The notes under the pieces are model-generated. The model was not told where the DNA came from. It saw only the letters and a program-made list of their open reading frames with translations, and ran no database searches. The position numbers and the translations under genes are program-made. A DNA stretch of 27,230 nt from Plicaturopsis crispa FD-325 SS-3. Lineage: Eukaryota; Basidiomycota; Agaricomycetes; Amylocorticiales; Amylocorticiaceae. The DNA is taken from contig KN832583.1 in NCBI GenBank assembly GCA_000827205.1, forward strand, positions 53,790 through 81,019. Direction: 5' to 3'. Of this stretch, positions 7,855-23,050 are shown piece after piece (position 1 is the first letter of the stretch; every line of letters begins with the position of its first letter).

Positions 7855-7905
7855 ACGGGTACGGGTAGCCCTGGAAAACCCCAGGGTTACCCGTGCCATT
7901 CACTA

Positions 7906-7913
7906 CCAGTAGG
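7906..7913. repeat. Right target site duplication of hAT
   Basis: CCAGTAGG is identical to 2472-2479 and directly abuts the right terminus CATTCACTA. Confidence 0.92.
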
Positions 7914-8121
7914 TCCGTGCGCAACAACAGCGAAGGCAAGGCGGATAGCTGAGAAAGTTTCAAAGTCTGAGGGCAAGCCAAAAAGCCGGGAAATGGCAGG
8001 AGAAACCTGGGCAGAGTTGTAATGCATTAAACACCGGACCCAGCATGACTCGGAGAATAGTGCATTAGCAATTTGGGATCATGCCAGGGTTTTATATAAT
8101 AACACTACACCATCAGGTGCG
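7914..8121 (+). repeat. Repeat R copy 1, inner part
   Basis: This stretch matches the complement of 16537-16742 almost throughout, and 20247-20480 more loosely. Conserved words in order are GTCCGTGCGCA, a GAAAGTTTCAAAGTCTGA block, TAATGCATTAAAC, CGGACCC, GTGCATTAGCAATTTGGGAT, TTTTATATAATAACAC and the edge ACTACACCATCAGGTG. Similarity stops abruptly after 8121. Confidence 0.85.
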
Positions 8122-9689: not shown

Positions 9690-9880
9690 CAGCTTGCTAG
9701 CTGGCGGATATTGATGAGTGCGCTGCGCTGGGTGTGTATGCCTGGGCATCTGCGTGGGCTGGGGAATGCACGGACCGCGGGCACGATCCGCGGCTGCTTG
9801 CACACGGCTCTGTGCCGGGTGGGTGCATGTCGACGGTGGAGGAGGGCGGAAGGCGGCGGCAGCGGGTGTAGTGACGACGA
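9690..9880. other. Junction sequence between hAT shard and hairpin array
   Basis: The break point contains the hairpin GCCAGCT-TGCT-AGCTGGC (9687-9704), followed by GC-rich sequence grading into the array. No gene is visible. Confidence 0.4.
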
Positions 9881-10830
9881 CGACACGCCGGCTGGCGTCT
9901 CGTTTCGTTGTCGTTGCCGTCTCGCGTGCATGGGCTCGCAGCGCGCGAGATAGTGGGCCCGTGGTGGGTGCTGAGGGTGGAAGAAGGCGGGGGCAGCGAG
10001 GAAACCGACAACAACGAGACGCTCCTGGCGTCTCGTGTTGTCGTCGCCGTCTCGCGTGCACCGGCTCACAGCGCGCGAGACGGCGGGTCTGTGGTGGTCC
10101 GAGGGTGAAGGAGGGAGGAAGGCGGCGGCGGCGGGGGCAAAGCAACGACAACGACAACGAGACGCCGTCTGGCGTCTCGTTTTGTCGTCAGCGTCTCGCG
10201 TGCACCGGCTCACAGCGCGCGAGGCGGCGGGCCCATGGTGGTCCGCTGAGGGTGGAGGAGGGCGGGAGGCGGCGGCGGCGGCGGTGGGTGGAATGACGAC
10301 GCCGAGACACCGTCTGGCGTCTCGACTCGTCGTCGCTGTCTCGCGTGCACCGGCTCGCAGCGCGCGAGACGGTGGGCCGTGGTGGTGTGCTGCAGGAAGG
10401 AGGGAGGTGGTGGTCGCGGGTGGAGTGACGACGATGACTCGACGCCAGGCGGCGCCTCGTCTCGTTGTCGTTGTCTCGTTGTCGCCGTCTCGCAGCGCGC
10501 GAGACGGTGGGCCGTGGCGGTGTGCTGCGGGAAGGGAGGAAGCGGCGGTGGTGGGTGAAGTGACGACGACGAGACGCCAGCCGGCGTCTCGTCTCGTCGT
10601 CGCCGTCTCGCAGCGCACGAGACGGCGGGCCCGTAGTCGTGCGCTGAGGATGGGAGTCCGGGGGCTTCGCGCTCTAGCGCGGCGAGAGGCAAGCGGCGGC
10701 GGCGGGTGGAGTGACGAGACGCCAGCCGGCGTCTCGTTCCGTTGTCATCGTCTCGCGTGCGCACACGAGACGGCAGGCCCACGGTGGTGTGCTGAGGGTG
10801 GAGGAAGGTCGCGGCGAGCTTTGAGCTTGT
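9880..10830. repeat. Tandem array of ~140-bp double-hairpin units
   Basis: Seven units begin near 9884, 10017, 10160, 10303, 10433, 10571 and 10716, a spacing of 130-145 bp. Each has a hairpin of the form GAGACGCC-NNNN-GGCGTCTC (perfect 8-bp stems at 10159-10178, 10571-10590 and 10716-10735). A second follows, TCTCGCG ... CGCGAGA, with a loop of about 17 bases containing CACCGGCTC. Then comes a GGCGGGCCCGTGGTGG block and a GGAGGAGGGCGG-type G-rich tail. Long open frames on both strands are by-products of the repeat composition; the longest minus-strand one covers 9626-10618. Confidence 0.85.
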
Positions 10831-15181: not shown

Positions 15182-16539
15182 ATGCGACCACCTCCCCCCG
15201 GCTCTCAACTTGAAGTAGAGCTCGCGCTTGCTCGTGCTGCAGAACTATCTCCATCGGACGAGCTCGATCTCCTCTTGGCCGCTGTCGCCGAAAACAACCG
15301 TCAAGATCCTCGCTACACCCTTGTGCAAGCCGTCCGAATGGCGCCCTCCAAAGACCTTGGCGAGCGTTCGCCCTCGCCGGGTGAGCCGTTGTTCTTGCCG
15401 AGTGAGTCGGCGTCGTCGCCTAGGGGCGCCGCGAACGAGGTGGAAGAAGGCGCTAACGAGGTGGGAGGAGACGCGAACGAGTTGGAAGAGGACGCGAACG
15501 AGGTGGAAGAACATGCGAATGAGCTGGAGGAAAGACGCGAACGAGCGCGGCGAAGGCGCGGCGGGGTTGGGCGAGTCTGCGCCGGATCCTGCCGGTGACA
15601 ACGTCTGGTTGGCTGAAGACTTCGAGGCAGGTCTCCAGAACCGCATGGTGCCGAAGAACGTGGTGAACGATCAGGAAGGTGTCGAGGACGACGCTATTCC
15701 TTGGTCCCTGCGCGCGCGCTTTCGGTCGTGGGTCACCAACGACCGCCTCCAAGGGTGCGAGGCGTATAATCTCGGGTCTGGGCGCTTGGTGGTGAGTTCT
15801 CATGAATTTGTTCGTTGTGCGCGCATATGCTGATTCGTCGTTGCTTCAGGGTTGCCTCCGTTGTCACGGCGCAGGCAAGCGGTGTTTCCTGGCCGCCGAT
15901 ATTGCCAAGTGCGTGAACTGTTCGCGCTCGCGCCTGCAGTGCTCGCGCGTGCAATCCTACCACGAGTGGCGCATTCGCTCGAACATGGACGACGACCCCG
16001 AGTTTGCGGCGATCGGTGGAAGTGCCGAGTTCGTGCGCTTCCTCCAGGATTATTACGCGACGAAGGGCCAAGCCATTCCGCCTGGTGAGGAGCCGCCCAA
16101 GTCCAAGAAATCACGTGGTGCCGCGAAGAAGCCGCTGCCTCCCCCGACCGCTGTCGTTGTCTCGCCGCCGCGCACCCGCGGTCGCAAATCCGTGGCTGGA
16201 CCGTCGGTCAAGGCTCTGGGCAAGCGCCCTGCACGAGGGTCGTCTCCGGCAGGTGAAGCATCGGCGGGAGTCGCTGCTGGCGCGGAGGCGTTACAATCCT
16301 CTGCGCGACCCCAACGTAAGAAGGTACGTGTCGTTTCCTCTTGTCGGGGTTTTTTGTGTGTGATCTGACCCGTGGTGTCGCAGGCTCGTGTTATTCCCGA
16401 CACTCCGCGGAGCCCCTCACCGGATGGTGTGCCAGGCGCGACTTCGCCTTCGCCCGATCCCTTGCTCGGCGAGCTCGACTTCGAGCTCGATGTCGACCTT
16501 ACGGACCTTCACCGCCTGCGCCACGCGAACACCACCTGA
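15182..16539 (+). pseudogene. Zn(II)2Cys6-type protein gene, three exons, one frameshift
   Basis: Exons are 15182-15791, 15850-16323 and 16384-16539 with introns of 58 and 60 bp (GTGAGT...TTCAG, GTACGT...CGCAG), all phase 0. The intended product is about 412 aa. It has a charged N-terminus, then five to six heptads of type E-V/L-E-E-D-A-N encoded by a 21-bp repeat (15437-15562), an acidic stretch and a central cluster. The cluster pattern is C-x2-C-x6-C-x8-C-x2-C-x6-C (about residues 205-234), the spacing of fungal binuclear zinc clusters. A basic Ser/Pro-rich tail with KKSRGAAKK follows. One extra A in the AAA run at 15531-15533 breaks the frame inside the repeat; everything downstream stays open. 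It could be a transcription-factor-like or element-encoded DNA-binding protein. Its stop lies on the inner edge of repeat R copy 2. A sequencing error would make it intact. Confidence 0.65.
15437..15562 (+). repeat. 21-bp in-frame heptad repeat
   Basis: Six 21-bp units of type GAGGTGGAAGAAGACGCGAAC encode seven-residue blocks E-V-E-E-D-A-N. The seven-residue period would suit a short acidic helix or coiled coil. The frameshift at 15531-15533 falls in the fifth unit. Confidence 0.8.
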
Positions 16540-16868
16540 TGGTGTAGTGTTATTATATAAAACCCCGGCATGATCCCAAATTGCTAATGCACTATTTTCC
16601 GAGTCATGCCGGGTCCGATGTTTAATGCATTACAGTGCTGCCCCTGTTTCTTTTGCCACTCTCCGGCTCCTCGGCTTGCCGTCGGACTATGAAATTTTCT
16701 CAGATACCTGCCTCGCCGTCGCCCGGCGTTGCGCACGGACCTCCATGCACTTTCTCCGCACTCTGATCACGTGATCTCGGCCCAAGGGCATGCAAAAGCA
16801 TGCCCTTTCAGCTCGAAAAATTATGAAAAAAAAGTATAAAATTTAATCAGTACTCAGGAAAGGGGGGG
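16537..16868 (-). repeat. Repeat R copy 2 (inverted)
   Basis: The inner edge CACCTGATGGTGTAGTG overlaps the stop codon of the Zn-cluster gene. Inside are TTATATAAAACC, ATGATCCCAAATTGCTAATG, TTTAATGCATTAC, a GAAATTTTCTCAG block, TGCGCACGGACCT, the 12-bp palindrome GATCACGTGATC (16765-16776) and a perfect 10-bp-stem hairpin at 16784-16807. The A/T tract comes next, then a poly-G run. It is collinear with copy 1 once the hAT is removed. Confidence 0.85.
16784..16807. repeat. Perfect 10-bp-stem hairpin
   Basis: AAGGGCATGC and its complement are separated by AAAA. The hairpin is present in repeat R copy 2 only; copies 1 and 3 lack it at the equivalent site. It is followed by T-poor sequence, so it is not a simple terminator. 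Confidence 0.75.
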
Positions 16869-16944
16869 ACAGGGAGGGGTGGACTACAAATACTTTGACA
16901 TGACTATTTTACAGGCTACATAGGGACTAATTATAAATTGGGCC

Positions 16945-17870
16945 CGGGTGCCGCGGGCTGGCACAGCGTGCGCGTGGACGGCACGGGGACGGCAATGGCG
17001 TGCGCGCGGATGGGGCTGGCATGCGCGCGCACGCGGTCGGCGTGGACTGGAATGGGGTTGGCGTGCGCAGGGACGGGGCTGGCGAGCGCGTACGGGGTTG
17101 GCGTGTGCGCGTATGGGGCTGGCGTGCACTGGGACGGGGACGGGGTCGGCGTGCGCGCACGGGGTTGGCGTGCGCGCATATGGGGTTGGCGTGCGCTGGG
17201 ACGGGGCTGCCGTGTGCTGGGACAGGGTTGGTGTGTGCTGGGACAGGGTTGGTGTGTGCGCGTACGGGACTGGCGTGTGCGCGTACGGGGTCGGCGTGCG
17301 CAGGGACGGGGCTGGCGTGCACGTATGGGGCTAGCGCGCGCGTATGGGGCTGGCGGGTTGGCGGGTGCGCGTATGGGGCTGGCGTGCACTGGGGCGGGTC
17401 GGCGTGCGCAGGGATGGGGTTGGCGGGTGCGTACGGTGTTGACGTGCGCGCATACGGGGTCGGTGTGCACTGGGACGGGGCTGCCGTGCGCTGGGGCGAG
17501 GTCGGCGTGCGCGGACGGGGTCGGCGTGAGCTGGGAGGGGCTGCTGTGCGCGTGGACGGGGTTGGCGTGCGCTCACGGGGCTGCCGTGCAGGTGGACGGG
17601 CTGGCGTGAGCTGGGAAGGGGCTGGCGTGCGTTGGGATGGGGTCGGCGTGCGCGCATACGGGGCTGGCGTGCGCTGGGAAGGGGCTAGCGTGCGCGCACG
17701 GGGTTGCCGTGCGCTGGGACGGGGCTAGCGGGTTGGCGTGCACGCACGGGGTTGACGTGCACGCACACGGGGTTGGTGTGCGCTGGGACGGGGCTGCCGT
17801 GCGCTTACGGGGCTGCCATGCGCTAGGAAGGGGTCGGCGCGAGCTGGAAGGGGGCTGCCGTGCGCATCGA
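16945..17870. repeat. GC minisatellite A (15-24 bp variable units)
   Basis: This is continuous repetition of words such as GGGGCTGGCGTGCGC, GTGCGCTGGGACGGGG and GTGCGCGTATGGGG. Unit length varies between about 15 and 24 bp, and the two main unit types are of 18 and 21 bp. Several long open frames on both strands result from the composition, including a 242-codon plus-strand one at 17000-17728. None has a start context or splice evidence, so I do not call a gene. Confidence 0.85.
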
Positions 17871-18054
17871 CGTGGCAGGCCGTGGGTCGGTGATGTTGCG
17901 GGAGGGCGCGGTGTCGGTGCCGTAGGATGAAGGTCCCCAGGGGATGTCGCCATCCGGGTGCATGCTGCTGCTGGCTGGCTGCGTGACGTGGCCTGCAAAT
18001 TTGTCGTTAGCAAGCAAAGTAACGGTTAGAAAAAGAAAAAAAGACTTACAATAA

Positions 18055-18276
18055 GATAAAAAGGACGGCAGACACTCCCCGCGAAGTCGCGGGGAGTGGA
18101 AAGTCGTCGTAGCGTGCTGGGACGCGGACGACGTGGGCGACGACGATGAGGAGGAAGGAAACGACGACGACGCGAGAGTTTGCAAATTTCAAACTCCGCC
18201 GGGATTCGCCGCGCTGGCGCTCGACAGCGTCAAACGCCTTTCCTCAAGCTTCACTCGATGTTTTTTTGAGCTGTAA
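18055..18276 (+). other. Open frame in left palindrome arm, mirror of 18871-19089
   Basis: This stretch of 73 codons has no ATG. It contains VACWDADDVGDDDEEE, FQTPPGFAALALD and LSSSFTRCFFEL followed by TAA. The mirrored minus-strand frame at 18871-19089 gives nearly the same peptide. DNA similarity continues past the stop codons, so conservation is of DNA and not necessarily of protein. Confidence 0.4.
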
Positions 18277-18870
18277 AATATATATAGGCGTCGTATATAC
18301 ATGTAGATAGTGTGTACAAAATCCTGAATTTTTTTGAGCGCTGGAAATGGAGAGGGAGCGGAGAACATCCAAAAAGTCGCGAACCAACGTGTTTCATACG
18401 GTCGTTTCGCGAATAGCACTACACCCCTCGATTATTTCGCTCCAAAAAAATTATATTCGAGTTCAGAGGGTACGAAAACATGCCCTATGATTTTACAGAA
18501 GAGATCCAACGGATGTGCCCAGTGCAGGAGCCGTCATGGACTCTCCAAGCACCAGAATCGACCATTTCCGCGTCGCGGAAATGCTCGACTGCAGTGCTTG
18601 GAGAGCCTATTGCTGCTCCTGAGATGGGCACATCCGCTCAATCTTTTCTGTAAAATCATATACCATGTATTTACGCTCTCTGAACATGATCATAATTTTT
18701 TTGAAGCGAAATAATCAAGGGGTGTAGTGATATTCGTGAAACGACTGTATGGAACACAGTGGTTCGCGACTTTTCGGTACGTTCTCCGCTCCCTATCCAC
18801 TTCCAGCGCTCAAAAAAATTCAGGATTTTGTATACACTATCTACATGTAAATACGACGCCTATGTACATT

Positions 18871-19089
18871 TTACAGCTCGAAAAAACATCGAGTGAAGCT
18901 CGAGGAAAGGTGTTTGTCGTCGTCGAGCGCCAGCGCGGCGAATCCCGGCGGAGTTTGAAACTGCCAAACTTTCGCGTCGTCGCTGTTTGCTCCTTCCTCG
19001 TCGTCGTCGCTCACGTCGTCAGCGTCCCAGCACGCTGCGACGACGTTCCACCCCCCGCAACTTCGCGTGGGGGTGTCTCTTTGGTACAT
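18871..19089 (-). CDS. Hypothetical 72-aa ORF in right palindrome arm
   Basis: The frame starts with ATG at 19089 and ends RCFFEL-stop. It has a short N-terminus with DTPTRSCGG, then ACWDADDVSDDDEE, KVWQFQTPPGFAALALDDD and the C-terminal LSSSFTRCFFEL. The left arm encodes the same C-terminal 50 residues with a few substitutions but no start codon. I do not recognise the family. It may be the terminal exon of a transposon gene that was duplicated when the palindrome arose, or an incidental frame. The opposite strand of the same arm carries the intron-like block, so strand assignment is uncertain. Confidence 0.25.
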   Translation of the reverse strand: MYQRDTPTRSCGGWNVVAACWDADDVSDDDEEGANSDDAKVWQFQTPPGFAALALDDDKHLSSSFTRCFFEL

Positions 19090-19164
19090 TCACTCATTTG
19101 TAAGTTTTTGTTTTTTTTTGCCCGTTAGTTCTCGTGCTGACGAGGACTTTTCAGGCCACGTCAC

Positions 19165-19435
19165 TCACCCATCACACCCACTCGCGCAGCGCGTACCACC
19201 GCCCACGCCGAGCCAGGCCCACCCACACACGCCAAGGAGCGGACACGCGCAAGCCAACGACAGCGCGGGGCGGCACACGGACGGCCAGGAGGGCAGGGCA
19301 AGGCATGAGGGAGGCAGAGGAGGGCAAAGCGCTAGTCCAGGGCGGGCAGTGTGCCAGGAGCAGCAACAAACGGGGCCGGAAAGCGGGGACGCAGCTCCCA
19401 GCACCACCGTGCCCACACACTCCCCTCCCTGTCGA
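19165..19435. other. GC-rich spacer between palindrome and minisatellite B
   Basis: No gene is supported. The sequence is GC-rich and follows the outward AG of the intron-like block. Open frames run through into minisatellite B and are treated as composition effects. Confidence 0.35.
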
Positions 19436-19990
19436 CCCCATCCTCGCGCTGTCCACGGCGTCTCCGCGCTGTCGACGCCGCCCCGCCCTGTCCACGGCCC
19501 TGACGACGCCGCCCCGCCCTGTCCACGGCCCTGTCGACCCCATCCCCGCCCTGTCGACCCCATCCCCGCCCTGTCGACGCCGTCTGCGCCCTGTCGACGC
19601 CGTCCGTGCCCTGTCCACGCCGTCTGCGCCCTGTCCACGCCGTCCGCACCCTGTCGACGCTGCCCCGCGCCGTCCACCAGCGTCGCTGCACTGTCCGCGC
19701 CCTGTCCACGCCGCGCCCTGCTATCCACGGCCCCATCGACGCTGTTCCCGCCCTGTCGACGCCGTCCCTGCGCTGTCCACGGCGATGCCATCCCCGCCCT
19801 GTCGACGCCGTCCCCGCGCTGTCCACGGCGACGCCATCCCCGCCCTGTCGACGCCCTCCTCGCGCTGTCGACACCGTCCCCGCCCTGTCGACGCGATCCC
19901 CGCGCTTTTCACGCCCTCCCTGCGGCGTCCCCGCGTTGTCCCCGCCCTCGGCGCGCTGTCCCCGCCCTCCCCGCGTTGCGCGTAGGCGTC
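19436..19990. repeat. GC minisatellite B, 20-bp unit with SalI site
   Basis: About 25-27 copies of a 20-bp unit close to CCCTGTCGACGCCGTCCCCG; many contain GTCGAC. Because 20 is not a multiple of 3, all three frames cycle through the same peptide period and stay open on both strands, which explains the 136-353-codon frames seen here. Confidence 0.9.
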
Positions 19991-20109
19991 GCGCCCTCGC
20001 ATGTCCATTTATATAGCAAATATCTTTCTTATTCTTTCTTAGCTACATACATGCTTCCTGTACACCTGCTGCTCAATAGATATATGTTTTTCCCTTCCCT
20101 GCTGGTGCT

Positions 20110-20480
20110 GAGTGAGTGTAGACCATGAAAAAAAAATCAAAAAGAAAATCAAAAAAAAATCGAAAAAAATATTCGAATGGCTTGTGTGCATCGTTGCGCG
20201 CGTCGAACAGGTCACGTGCACGTCGGCGGTGACCGCGAGGGAGGGTACGAGGGTACGATTGAGGCCCGTGCGCATAACCGGACATTTCCGAAGACAATCC
20301 GGTAGTTTGAAGCAGGGAGTCGAAAATTTTCGAAGTCCGAAGCCAAGCCGGGAAGCCGGAGGGTGGCGGGGAAAAGCCCTAGAGCGCTGTAATGCATTAA
20401 AGGTCGGATCCGGCATGATCCAGGAAATGGTGCATTAGCGATTTGGGATGATGCAGGACTTTAATGCATTAATACTACAG
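20110..20480 (+). repeat. Repeat R copy 3
   Basis: This copy has the same order of landmarks as copy 1: a poly-A-rich outer tract (20126-20172), GGTCACGTGCA (20210-20220), GGCCCGTGCGCA, GAAAATTTTCGAAGTCCGAA (20322-20341), TAATGCATTAAAG, CCGGCATGA, GTGCATTAGCGATTTGGGAT and the inner edge ACTACAGCATCAGCTGA. It is more diverged than copies 1 and 2 are from each other. Its outer end faces copy 2's outer end across the palindrome. Confidence 0.75.
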
Positions 20481-20635
20481 CATCAGCTGAGGGCATACGC
20501 ACGCCATGGCCCTAGCCACGAACGCACAACGCCCACACCCCATCACGCCAGCGCAAAACGGTGCCAGGATGCTTTCCCAGCAACGAACCGACCACCAAAG
20601 CCCACGCCAGCGCAGCACCATGCGCGCATACTTGA

Positions 20636-20735
20636 CCAGGAGGCGAGGGCGGCGAGGAGGCGAGGGCGGCGAGGAGGCGAGGGCGGCGAGGCGGCGAGGG
20701 CGGGCGAGAAGGCGAGGGCGGGCGAGGTGGAGAGC
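20636..20735. repeat. Short GGCGAGG minisatellite
   Basis: Five to six units of about 18 bp, of type GGCGAGGAGGCGAGGGC, form a purine-rich strand-asymmetric tract. Confidence 0.8.
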
Positions 20736-21213: not shown

Positions 21214-23050
21214 CTACACACATGGGCTCACCCTCATCCTTGTTCCCCCGGTTGTAACCACGAAGACCGGGAGCTAAGCCCGGTTGGGTTGCGGTAGGGG
21301 GAGACAGGAGACAGGAGACGGGGGAGGGAGCGCATACGCGCTAGGAAGAAATTGGACAGTGCGCAGGCTGCCGCTGAGGGCAGCCCGCGCGCTTGGCCGC
21401 CGCAGATGCGAGCCTGCACAGCAATGGGGCTGCTGTGAGGCACGCCGGCTGTGGTCACCGCGTGCGCACAAAGGCGGCAGCTGTGGCGGGCGTAGACGCC
21501 TGGCGGCCGCGGTGTTGGCAGTTTGCGCTAGCGATGGTGGTAGGTGCACGAGCGCCGATGCCACGGACGCCAGTCATGCTGACGTGCGGTCGGCGCTCAC
21601 GCTGTCGTGGAGCGGGGTGCCGTGGGTGTGGGTGTCCTGGCGCCGGCGCCGGCAGCGGTGCGGTTGCACTGGCACCGGGGTGTCACCGTCATGCTGCTCC
21701 GGCGGGAGCCAGCAGGCGCTAGCTCCCGGCGTCGCCCTGCGCTGCAGCAGCTGCACCGGCACCGCGTTTGTCCTACCCTGCCTGTGCATGATGGACCGGG
21801 TATCTGGTCCACCCCATCTGCCACCGGGCCGTTGCGGCATGATGCAGGCTGCGCACGGCGTTGTGTGAGGGGAATGCCCCCTTCCATGGTACAACGCACG
21901 CTCACGCCGATCCCACATCCCCACACCATTCGCACTTGCGAACTCGCGCAGACCCGCGGAGACGATGGGAGAGAGGCACCGCAGAAAGAGGGAGAGGGAG
22001 CAAAGCGGGAGGGCGAGAGATCAGGCCAGCGACCGCCGTCTCGACGCCATCCACCCAGTGCGTCCCACTCCCAACGTACCGCCGTCCCACTCCCAACGTA
22101 CCGGTGTCCCGCTCCCAACGTCCCGCCGTCCCGCTCCCATCCCGCTGCCGTCCCATTCCGTCGCCATTCCACTGCCAGCACACCGCCGACGCCAGCCCTA
22201 CTCTCGCACTAGCGCACCCAGCCAGCGCGCACCTCCATCCCTCTGCCAGCGCGCGGCCCTCCGGCACGCGCCAGCGTTCGCACCCGCAGCACACGGCTCC
22301 CCCATGGGTGCACGCTCGCCAGCGCATAATCGCGCCAGCCGCAAGCGTAGCATCCGCACGCTGTGTATGCTCCATGCTCGCACCCGCGCCTGCTCACGTC
22401 AACGCACACAAACCCCACGCTGGCGCCCGCAGGCCAACACTCTGCACAGGTGCACGACAACACACGCGGGTGTGCACCAGCAGACTCGTTGAGTCGGCTG
22501 GCCCGCCGCGCACGATCTGCGCTAGTGCAGACCGCCGGCGCCCAGTGTGCACGGCACCACACCGTGCGTGCGTTCGCACTAGTAGGCCCACACACCCACC
22601 CTTGTGCGATACACAGGGAGCTAGGGGGCCCGTGTTGCGCACGCCGAGGACCACCTGCCTCGTCGCTAACAAGCGCGTCGAGGCTCTCCGCGTCGTCCGC
22701 ACCGCTAACCCCGCCCTCCACTGCCGGCGTTATCGCCTCCGCCCTCGACTGCGAGCGGCATGGGCCTCCGGCATTCCTATCTCTGCCGCCGCCTTGCCCC
22801 TCTGCCATCAATCTTGCCGCCGTTGACGGCGGTGTTCCCGCGCCGGCGCTTCCCGTACCCGCCCGTCCCGCGACTTCAATGTTCAATCCCACCTCTATTG
22901 CCTTCCCACTCGCGCCGTCCGACCTCTCCCCGGCTACATATTTTTTTTTGTATTAAATAGAATTGATAATTTTTAACACATTCGAGTAACGCATCTACGC
23001 AAGGCAATGAGTGAATAGAAATAAACATGACAAAGAGGACCTATGTACTT
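21214..23050. other. GC-rich low-complexity region, no gene supported
   Basis: Long overlapping frames on both strands lack coherent domains, splice support or conserved motifs. A 22-bp tandem repeat of type CGTCCCACTCCCAACGTACC occupies about 22065-22160. The rest is rich in CGCACC, CCAGCGC and similar words. Composition alone explains the open frames. Confidence 0.5.
22065..22160. repeat. 22-bp tandem repeat
   Basis: Four to five units close to CGTCCCACTCCCAACGTACC, decaying at the right side. Confidence 0.7.

Follow-up and report, generated by a model that had tools for sequence, protein, structure and literature searches.

Within a 27,230-nucleotide stretch of the genome of Plicaturopsis crispa FD-325 SS-3 (contig KN832583.1, here C30, positions 53790-81019, reaching the end of this 81-kb contig; hereafter the window), a locus of about 4 kb is laid out as its own mirror image, which raises the question of whether it arose by duplication on the spot or belongs to something mobile, and of what its mirrored interior may be. 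Genome searches were carried out against the 33.2-Mb assembly of 49 contigs (C2, C6 and so on), and the locus was found to be almost certainly a copy of a dispersed family of ~4-kb DNA transposons, very likely moved by transposases of the Kyakuja-Dileera-Zisupton (KDZ) superfamily.

Self-comparison and repeat finding in the window agreed with the order given in the original prediction, namely an end repeat R, a GC minisatellite, a palindrome arm, the centre, a second arm, a second GC minisatellite and an inverted copy of R. The centre also lies where it had been placed, at 18573, with 1 nt between the flanking arm segments 18369-18572 and 18574-18777. The element itself is larger than was claimed, its ends lying 2.04 and 1.92 kb from the centre in place of 1.70 and 1.54 kb:

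16533..20489, unstranded: whole element, 3957 bp, with 5'-CA...TG-3' termini; ends set against the C6, C7 and C24 copies
16533..16742, plus strand: A-end (first R copy), starting CACCTGATGGTGTAGTGTTA, with subterminal words like TTAATGCATTA
20383..20489, minus strand: B-end (second R copy), CAGCTGATGCTGTAGTATTAATGCATTAA when read inward
16996..17804, unstranded: left GC minisatellite, 21/42-bp unit, with a C-rich outward strand
19421..19924, unstranded: right GC minisatellite, 20-bp unit
17976..18572, minus strand: left palindrome arm, with its outward unit on the minus strand
18574..19171, plus strand: right palindrome arm, with its outward unit on the plus strand and an imperfect hairpin copy
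18573, unstranded: palindrome centre, homologous across subfamilies

The R pair 16533-16639 and 20383-20489 is inverted over 107 nt and 80% complementary. The arms had been called near-perfect and were measured at 81-89% (89% for 18077-18375 against 18772-19070, 81% for the segments beside the centre), with 76% for 17976-18042 against 19105-19171. That the two minisatellites are mirrored in position and different in unit, and that likeness is higher between the arms than between the repeat zones, was borne out.

The outline of A-end, GC-rich zone, two facing arms, GC-rich zone and B-end recurs at six other loci of the same assembly, one arm being degenerate in two of these and the centre being an N gap in one. 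A search with the left arm gave at least 58 matches, including head-to-head pairs on C6, C7, C24, C13 and C2, and searches with the R regions gave 11 and 14 matches, with R pairs flanking the arms on C6, C7 and C24; R, minisatellites and arms, which might have proved to be families never found together, do occur together in genome copies. Perfect 7-bp target-site duplications were found at six of the seven copies with both ends known, the exception being the window copy. These are GGACCGT (C6:1829856-1833657), TCACAAA (C7:1240750-1244899), CCGGAGC (C24:225751-229660), ATATTCA (C13:971916-975782), ACTGCGT (C2:740241-743999) and CGCGCCT (C6:1126082-1130093). The ends were fixed before the duplication in four copies; in C2:740241 and C6:1126082 the partner end was found by way of the duplication and, once found, was seen to carry nearly identical inverted end sequence.

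All copies with both ends known have the termini 5'-CA...TG-3', and the window, C6, C7 and C24 copies each have one type A end (CACCTGATG) and one type B end (CAGCTGATG). A 29-letter end pattern, allowing up to 3 mismatches, gave 24 genome matches and none when reversed as a control, and a further 11 ends remained without a partner in the sequence examined. Dispersed copies with inverted ends and a target-site duplication of fixed length are what is seen in DNA transposons of the terminal inverted repeat type. Miniature inverted-repeat transposable elements are short, a few hundred bp, and the family was not placed among these on account of its size, 3.8-4.2 kb across copies. A Pfam search with five window reading frames of the element gave no match, and no KDZ match was found on C30; the element was therefore classed as non-autonomous. 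The single origin by inverted duplication that had been proposed holds to the extent that the parts belong together as one unit, but not as a local event, the locus being a dispersed transposon copy.

The interior was studied in an alignment of 18 arms from nine copies. In all eight copies with a readable centre, the centre is homologous (that of the C7 copy is an N run, 1242476-1243066), which makes the palindrome older than the subfamilies, between which the arms are ~45-72% alike. Read outward, the arms carry a core and, beyond it, GTAAGT, a GCTAAC-type branch site and CAG, with GCCAC coming next in many. In the window these are as follows:

18188..18202, minus strand: conserved core of the left arm, TTCAAACTCCGCCGG in plus-strand spelling
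18945..18959, plus strand: conserved core of the right arm, the same as in the left arm
18073..18098, minus strand: hairpin of the left arm, 10-bp stem, a member of the family hairpin with compensatory changes
17993..18049, minus strand: candidate spliceosomal intron of the left arm, 57 nt, GTAAGT...GCTAAC...TTTGCAG, then GCCAC
19100..19154, plus strand: candidate spliceosomal intron of the right arm, 55 nt, GTAAGT...GCTGAC...TTTTCAG, then GCCAC

The arm core (TTCAAACTCCGCCGGNNTTNNCC, up to 1 mismatch) was found 57 times in the genome and not once in the control. Twelve facing pairs are formed among these matches, giving at least 45 core loci; eleven pairs span 765-773 bp from outer edge to outer edge, and the C7 pair, with its gap, spans 1151. 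Two facing cores were present in all eight copies inspected. The copies at C2:740241 and C6:1126082 each have one core with 4 mismatches and no adjoining intron, and their second arm is weakly supported, since cores with 4 mismatches can arise by chance. It should also be noted that in R of several copies (window 16679-16693, C6:1833498) there is a 15-mer 2-4 mismatches away from the core, which may be fortuitous or mark a protein-binding site common to both.

The intron-like signals follow the arms closely. A strict pattern requiring GCCAC gave 15 matches, all of them within arms and directed outward, while a middling pattern placed an intron beside 27 of 38 cores (five of the 11 misses being weak cores with 2 mismatches) and a loose one was matched in 30 of 32 aligned arms, the remaining two having an altered branch site. 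In all sequence examined, 42 intron-like matches were detected against 3 in one shuffle; 27 of these are on the outward strand, 80-200 nt beyond a core in the outward direction, and the other 15 are elsewhere. In 16 of 16 arms from eight copies, the distance from the centre to the 5' splice signal is 522-527 nt. The automated choice of the 3' splice side was wrong or poor in C6 (right arm), C13 (left arm) and C7b (right arm).

The intron is directly preceded by a hairpin, its stem at most 10 bp long, complete in the left arm of the window and imperfect in the right. Over 32 arms, 92.1% of 317 cells are paired, and 15 cells are changed on both sides, against 4.0 in shuffles and with none of 500 shuffles as high, in counts that inherited changes enter many times; the covariation score behaves likewise. 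An Rfam search of the window gave no match at the gathering score. Within 17900-19250 the only weak match was MIR821, whose 41 bits fall below its gathering score of 249, and this was put down to the palindrome.

With these features, it is proposed that two outward-facing non-coding units lie between the ends and would share a central bidirectional start region, each made up of a first exon of ~525 nt that contains the hairpin, then a short spliceosomal intron, then an exon of GC-rich repeats. The chances that the arms are two such divergent non-coding transcription units, judged from sequence, are put at about even. Several observations count against it. The left arm of C13 and the right arm of C7b have no clear 3' splice signal, and of the five covariation measures, two are unremarkable beside the shuffles; pairs changed on both sides number 4, which was reached in 80 of 500 shuffles, and further pair types number 8, reached in 408 of 500, with one of six slid versions having more. 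The wobble pairs, 10 G-U against 8 A-C, do not distinguish between a DNA hairpin and an RNA hairpin formed by the outward strand. Going a step further, the cargo might consist of head-to-head genes for spliced, structured non-coding RNAs, with arms that are selected and repaired from each other and an RNA that serves the element, for example in expression control, escape from silencing or transposition, but this is put forward tentatively, as a suggestion that falls short of probable.

A plainer account, which is credible without reaching an even chance, is that of an ordinary foldback-type non-autonomous element with inert arms, the palindrome being a passive by-product. Long inverted repeats with internal tandem repeats, as known from Foldback and Galileo elements, are present; Drosophila Galileo is not known to have an intron-bearing central unit. 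Against inert arms, the core, the intron signals, the 522-527-nt spacing and the hairpin persist although subfamilies are only ~45-72% alike, and descent alone would not readily give such persistence.

The conserved centre, the intron and the outward orientation would also suit arms that are a captured or shared piece of a protein gene, its promoter and 5' exon, with the coding part lost or present in other copies. This is unlikely, and protein-coding arms were rejected: no reading frame is conserved across the junction in eight copies, substitutions have no codon periodicity (53/50/44 over 16 pairs), and the five window frames have no Pfam match. Nor was the arm core found in a stretch bearing KDZ transposase exons, C25:212050-218900, where a search with five exact arm words gave only one GGCCACG word per strand. 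A core at C27:135962, near KDZ matches at C27:133421-134150, was considered as a sign of an arm-bearing KDZ element and rejected, because an ordinary palindrome-type arm lies there with no similarity to the C25 KDZ pieces.

Returning to the proposal of paired non-coding units, the arms would have regained their likeness when each subfamily was founded or earlier, probably through conversion of one arm by the other. Comparison of the two arms within a copy gave 78-89% in seven copies, 73% in C43 and 66% in C6:888k (C6d), and arms cluster by subfamily and, inside a subfamily, not by copy. In C24, ~200 columns at 100% lie between stretches near 80%, which has the look of a conversion tract; a longer identical tract in C7 lies beside the N gap and may be an assembly effect. 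In C43 and C6:888k the left arms cluster with each other and the right arms likewise, and the left arms of C13 and C7:86k also pair up. Two comparisons speak against ongoing exchange. Same-side arms of C43 and C6d are 81.4 and 87.8% alike against 72.8 and 66.3% for arms of the same copy, and in the group of the window, C6 and C7 copies, own-copy arms are 78.7-83.7% alike against ~79-84% for arms of different copies (the right arm of C7, beside the gap, being excluded). As own-copy arms are no more alike than arms across copies, conversion is not continuous, and arm homogenisation, if that is what it is, would be episodic. The minisatellites, whose unit and presence vary from one copy and side to the next and whose outward strand is C-rich on both sides, are the fast-changing part of the element, and the repeat finder reported none on several sides of the copies; they would turn over freely while the arms are re-equalised. 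Many arm copies were seen near contig ends (C2:3.55-3.60 Mb, C17, C18, C3, C34), possibly being subtelomeric or reflecting repeats that break assemblies.

As to what moves the element, 43 KDZ domain matches, counted per exon and including one below the curated cut-off, were found in the genome. Split KDZ exons with CxC2 and KDZ domains are found ~2 kb from an A-type end at C25:213550, and over its first 99-114 bp this end is 76-80% identical to four family ends. At C19:59892 another KDZ-linked end, with the same end-to-gene geometry as at C25, can be aligned over 169 bp with the A-end of C13 (126 of 171 columns, with a score of 135 where 100 shuffles gave at most 27), so that the two ends together match family ends over 99-169 bp at 74-80%. 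A KDZ gene in the opposite orientation lies 2 kb inward of a third end, at C21:133148. With the C25 and C19 ends both ~2 kb from KDZ genes and matching family ends, and with the 7-bp duplications and CA..TG termini that are reported for Kyakuja, it is very likely that KDZ transposases act in trans on the A and B ends. Some results tell against this assignment: a search for partners of the C25 and C19 ends in the sequence examined found none, so that proof of the KDZ link is incomplete; no KDZ element was recovered whole, with its two ends and a duplication; and the terminal inverted repeats of ~107 bp at 80% differ from Kyakuja, for which none are reported, so that the family was not filed as Kyakuja proper. 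Adjoining the element at C6:1126082-1130093, a fragment at C6:1130094-1131060 is 51% identical to the C-terminal part of the C25 KDZ, and a second A-end comes next.

It is rather improbable that another superfamily with 7-bp duplications, such as a hAT7 or P/Galileo-type transposase, is responsible. Parts of the published accounts describe rust-fungi hAT7 families that make 7-bp duplications (PMC12730594) and chimeric Galileo copies bounded by 7-bp sequences (PMC3573991); here, KDZ genes lie inside family-matching ends, and genes of other superfamilies were not searched for.

The window copy itself departs from the family pattern in having no target-site duplication, its flanks being CGAACAC and AGGGCAT, which counts against the explanation favoured here. 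Its A half and inner arms have the highest identity to C6 and C7, its outer B half to C24, the affinity switching near 18973-19133. For telling subfamilies apart the last 80 bp of the B-end are uninformative, and diagnostic sites in the outer B half gave mixed counts, in part because agreement with either of C6 and C7 was counted. The mosaic affinity and the missing duplication suggest ectopic recombination or an assembly mis-join, and two subfamilies have probably recombined in the window copy; among the end flanks inspected, none with AGGGCAT or CGAACAC on the fitting side was found that could mark the reciprocal product. A local inverted duplication or assembly artefact as the origin of the whole locus, for which the mosaic window copy without a duplication (as a mis-join could yield) and the N at the C7 centre might be cited, is very improbable and, as regards local duplication, was rejected because the outline recurs with target-site duplications at six loci, the window moreover containing no N stretch.

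The remaining features of the window are given below:

18973..19133, unstranded: probable mosaic break, inner side nearer C6/C7 and outer side nearer C24
15219..16532, plus strand: interrupted gene of a multicopy family, the element entering a coiled-coil exon
7903..8119, minus strand: truncated solo A-end, 217 bp, 92% identical to the C6 copy

The interrupted gene family, which we take to be Zn2Cys6-like although Pfam gave no match, has cysteine-cluster and coiled-coil exons and 17 genome matches to the left flank. In the coiled-coil exon, the insertion point of the window element is the residue that pairs with the N of LRAEN when the C24 paralogue is aligned. The C25 element is inserted in another paralogue at a site about two codons from this one, and the C24 element interrupts its own paralogue one exon earlier. 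The rest of the interrupted gene was not found elsewhere within the window. Three elements thus lie in one gene family (window 15219-16532, C24:229662-230361, C25:212645-213405), with the A-end gene-upstream each time, and a target preference is possible. No similarity to the remaining element parts was found adjoining the solo A-end. Further tandem repeats in the window are at 9874-10611 (135/144-bp unit), 20638-20727 (17-bp) and 22061-22159 (22-bp).

Taken as a whole, the explanation of a ~4-kb non-autonomous element with mirrored non-coding units, mobilised in trans by KDZ transposases that would give the 7-bp duplications, is considered probable, confidence having been moderated by conversion and mosaicism that proved less clean than first thought.

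Among known systems, the Kyakuja elements of Agaricomycetes are, in the passages of PMC12730594 that deal with them, given 7-bp duplications and 5'-CA..TG-3' termini, as found here, where KDZ genes are linked to matching ends; they differ in having a transposase and no terminal inverted repeats, whereas the present family has inverted ends and no transposase was found in it. Cryptococcus neoformans KDZ1-3 share the superfamily and have inverted ends (139-241 bp), but are described in part of PMC12810828 as 9-11 kb long with transposase genes, a CxC1 domain and duplications of 8 bp (KDZ1) or 4-8 bp (KDZ2, KDZ3). The foldback-like Drosophila Galileo has long inverted repeats, internal tandem repeats and chimeric copies whose flanking 7-bp sequences do not match, as in the window copy, but its transposase is of the P-element superfamily (PMC3573991, in part). 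The rust-fungi hAT7 elements are alike in their 7-bp duplications and differ in their hAT transposase, none of which was seen, or sought, near the ends of the present family (PMC12730594, in part). Among the listed titles and abstract openings of open-licence PMC papers, none on a non-autonomous KDZ element of such architecture was found. What appears new in this foldback-like, KDZ-ended non-autonomous element is its conserved, mirrored and putatively intron-bearing interior.

Non-autonomous transposons are usually regarded as little beyond the ends required for movement. In this family the interior is also conserved, with a core, intron signals, a covarying hairpin and a fixed distance to the centre, twice over in mirror image and amid 45-72% divergence, which offers a testable case for selection on non-coding cargo within a mobile element. 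The palindrome family also allows exchange between arms to be measured, and its copies, as likely KDZ substrates, may serve in defining how the little-studied KDZ transposases recognise their ends.

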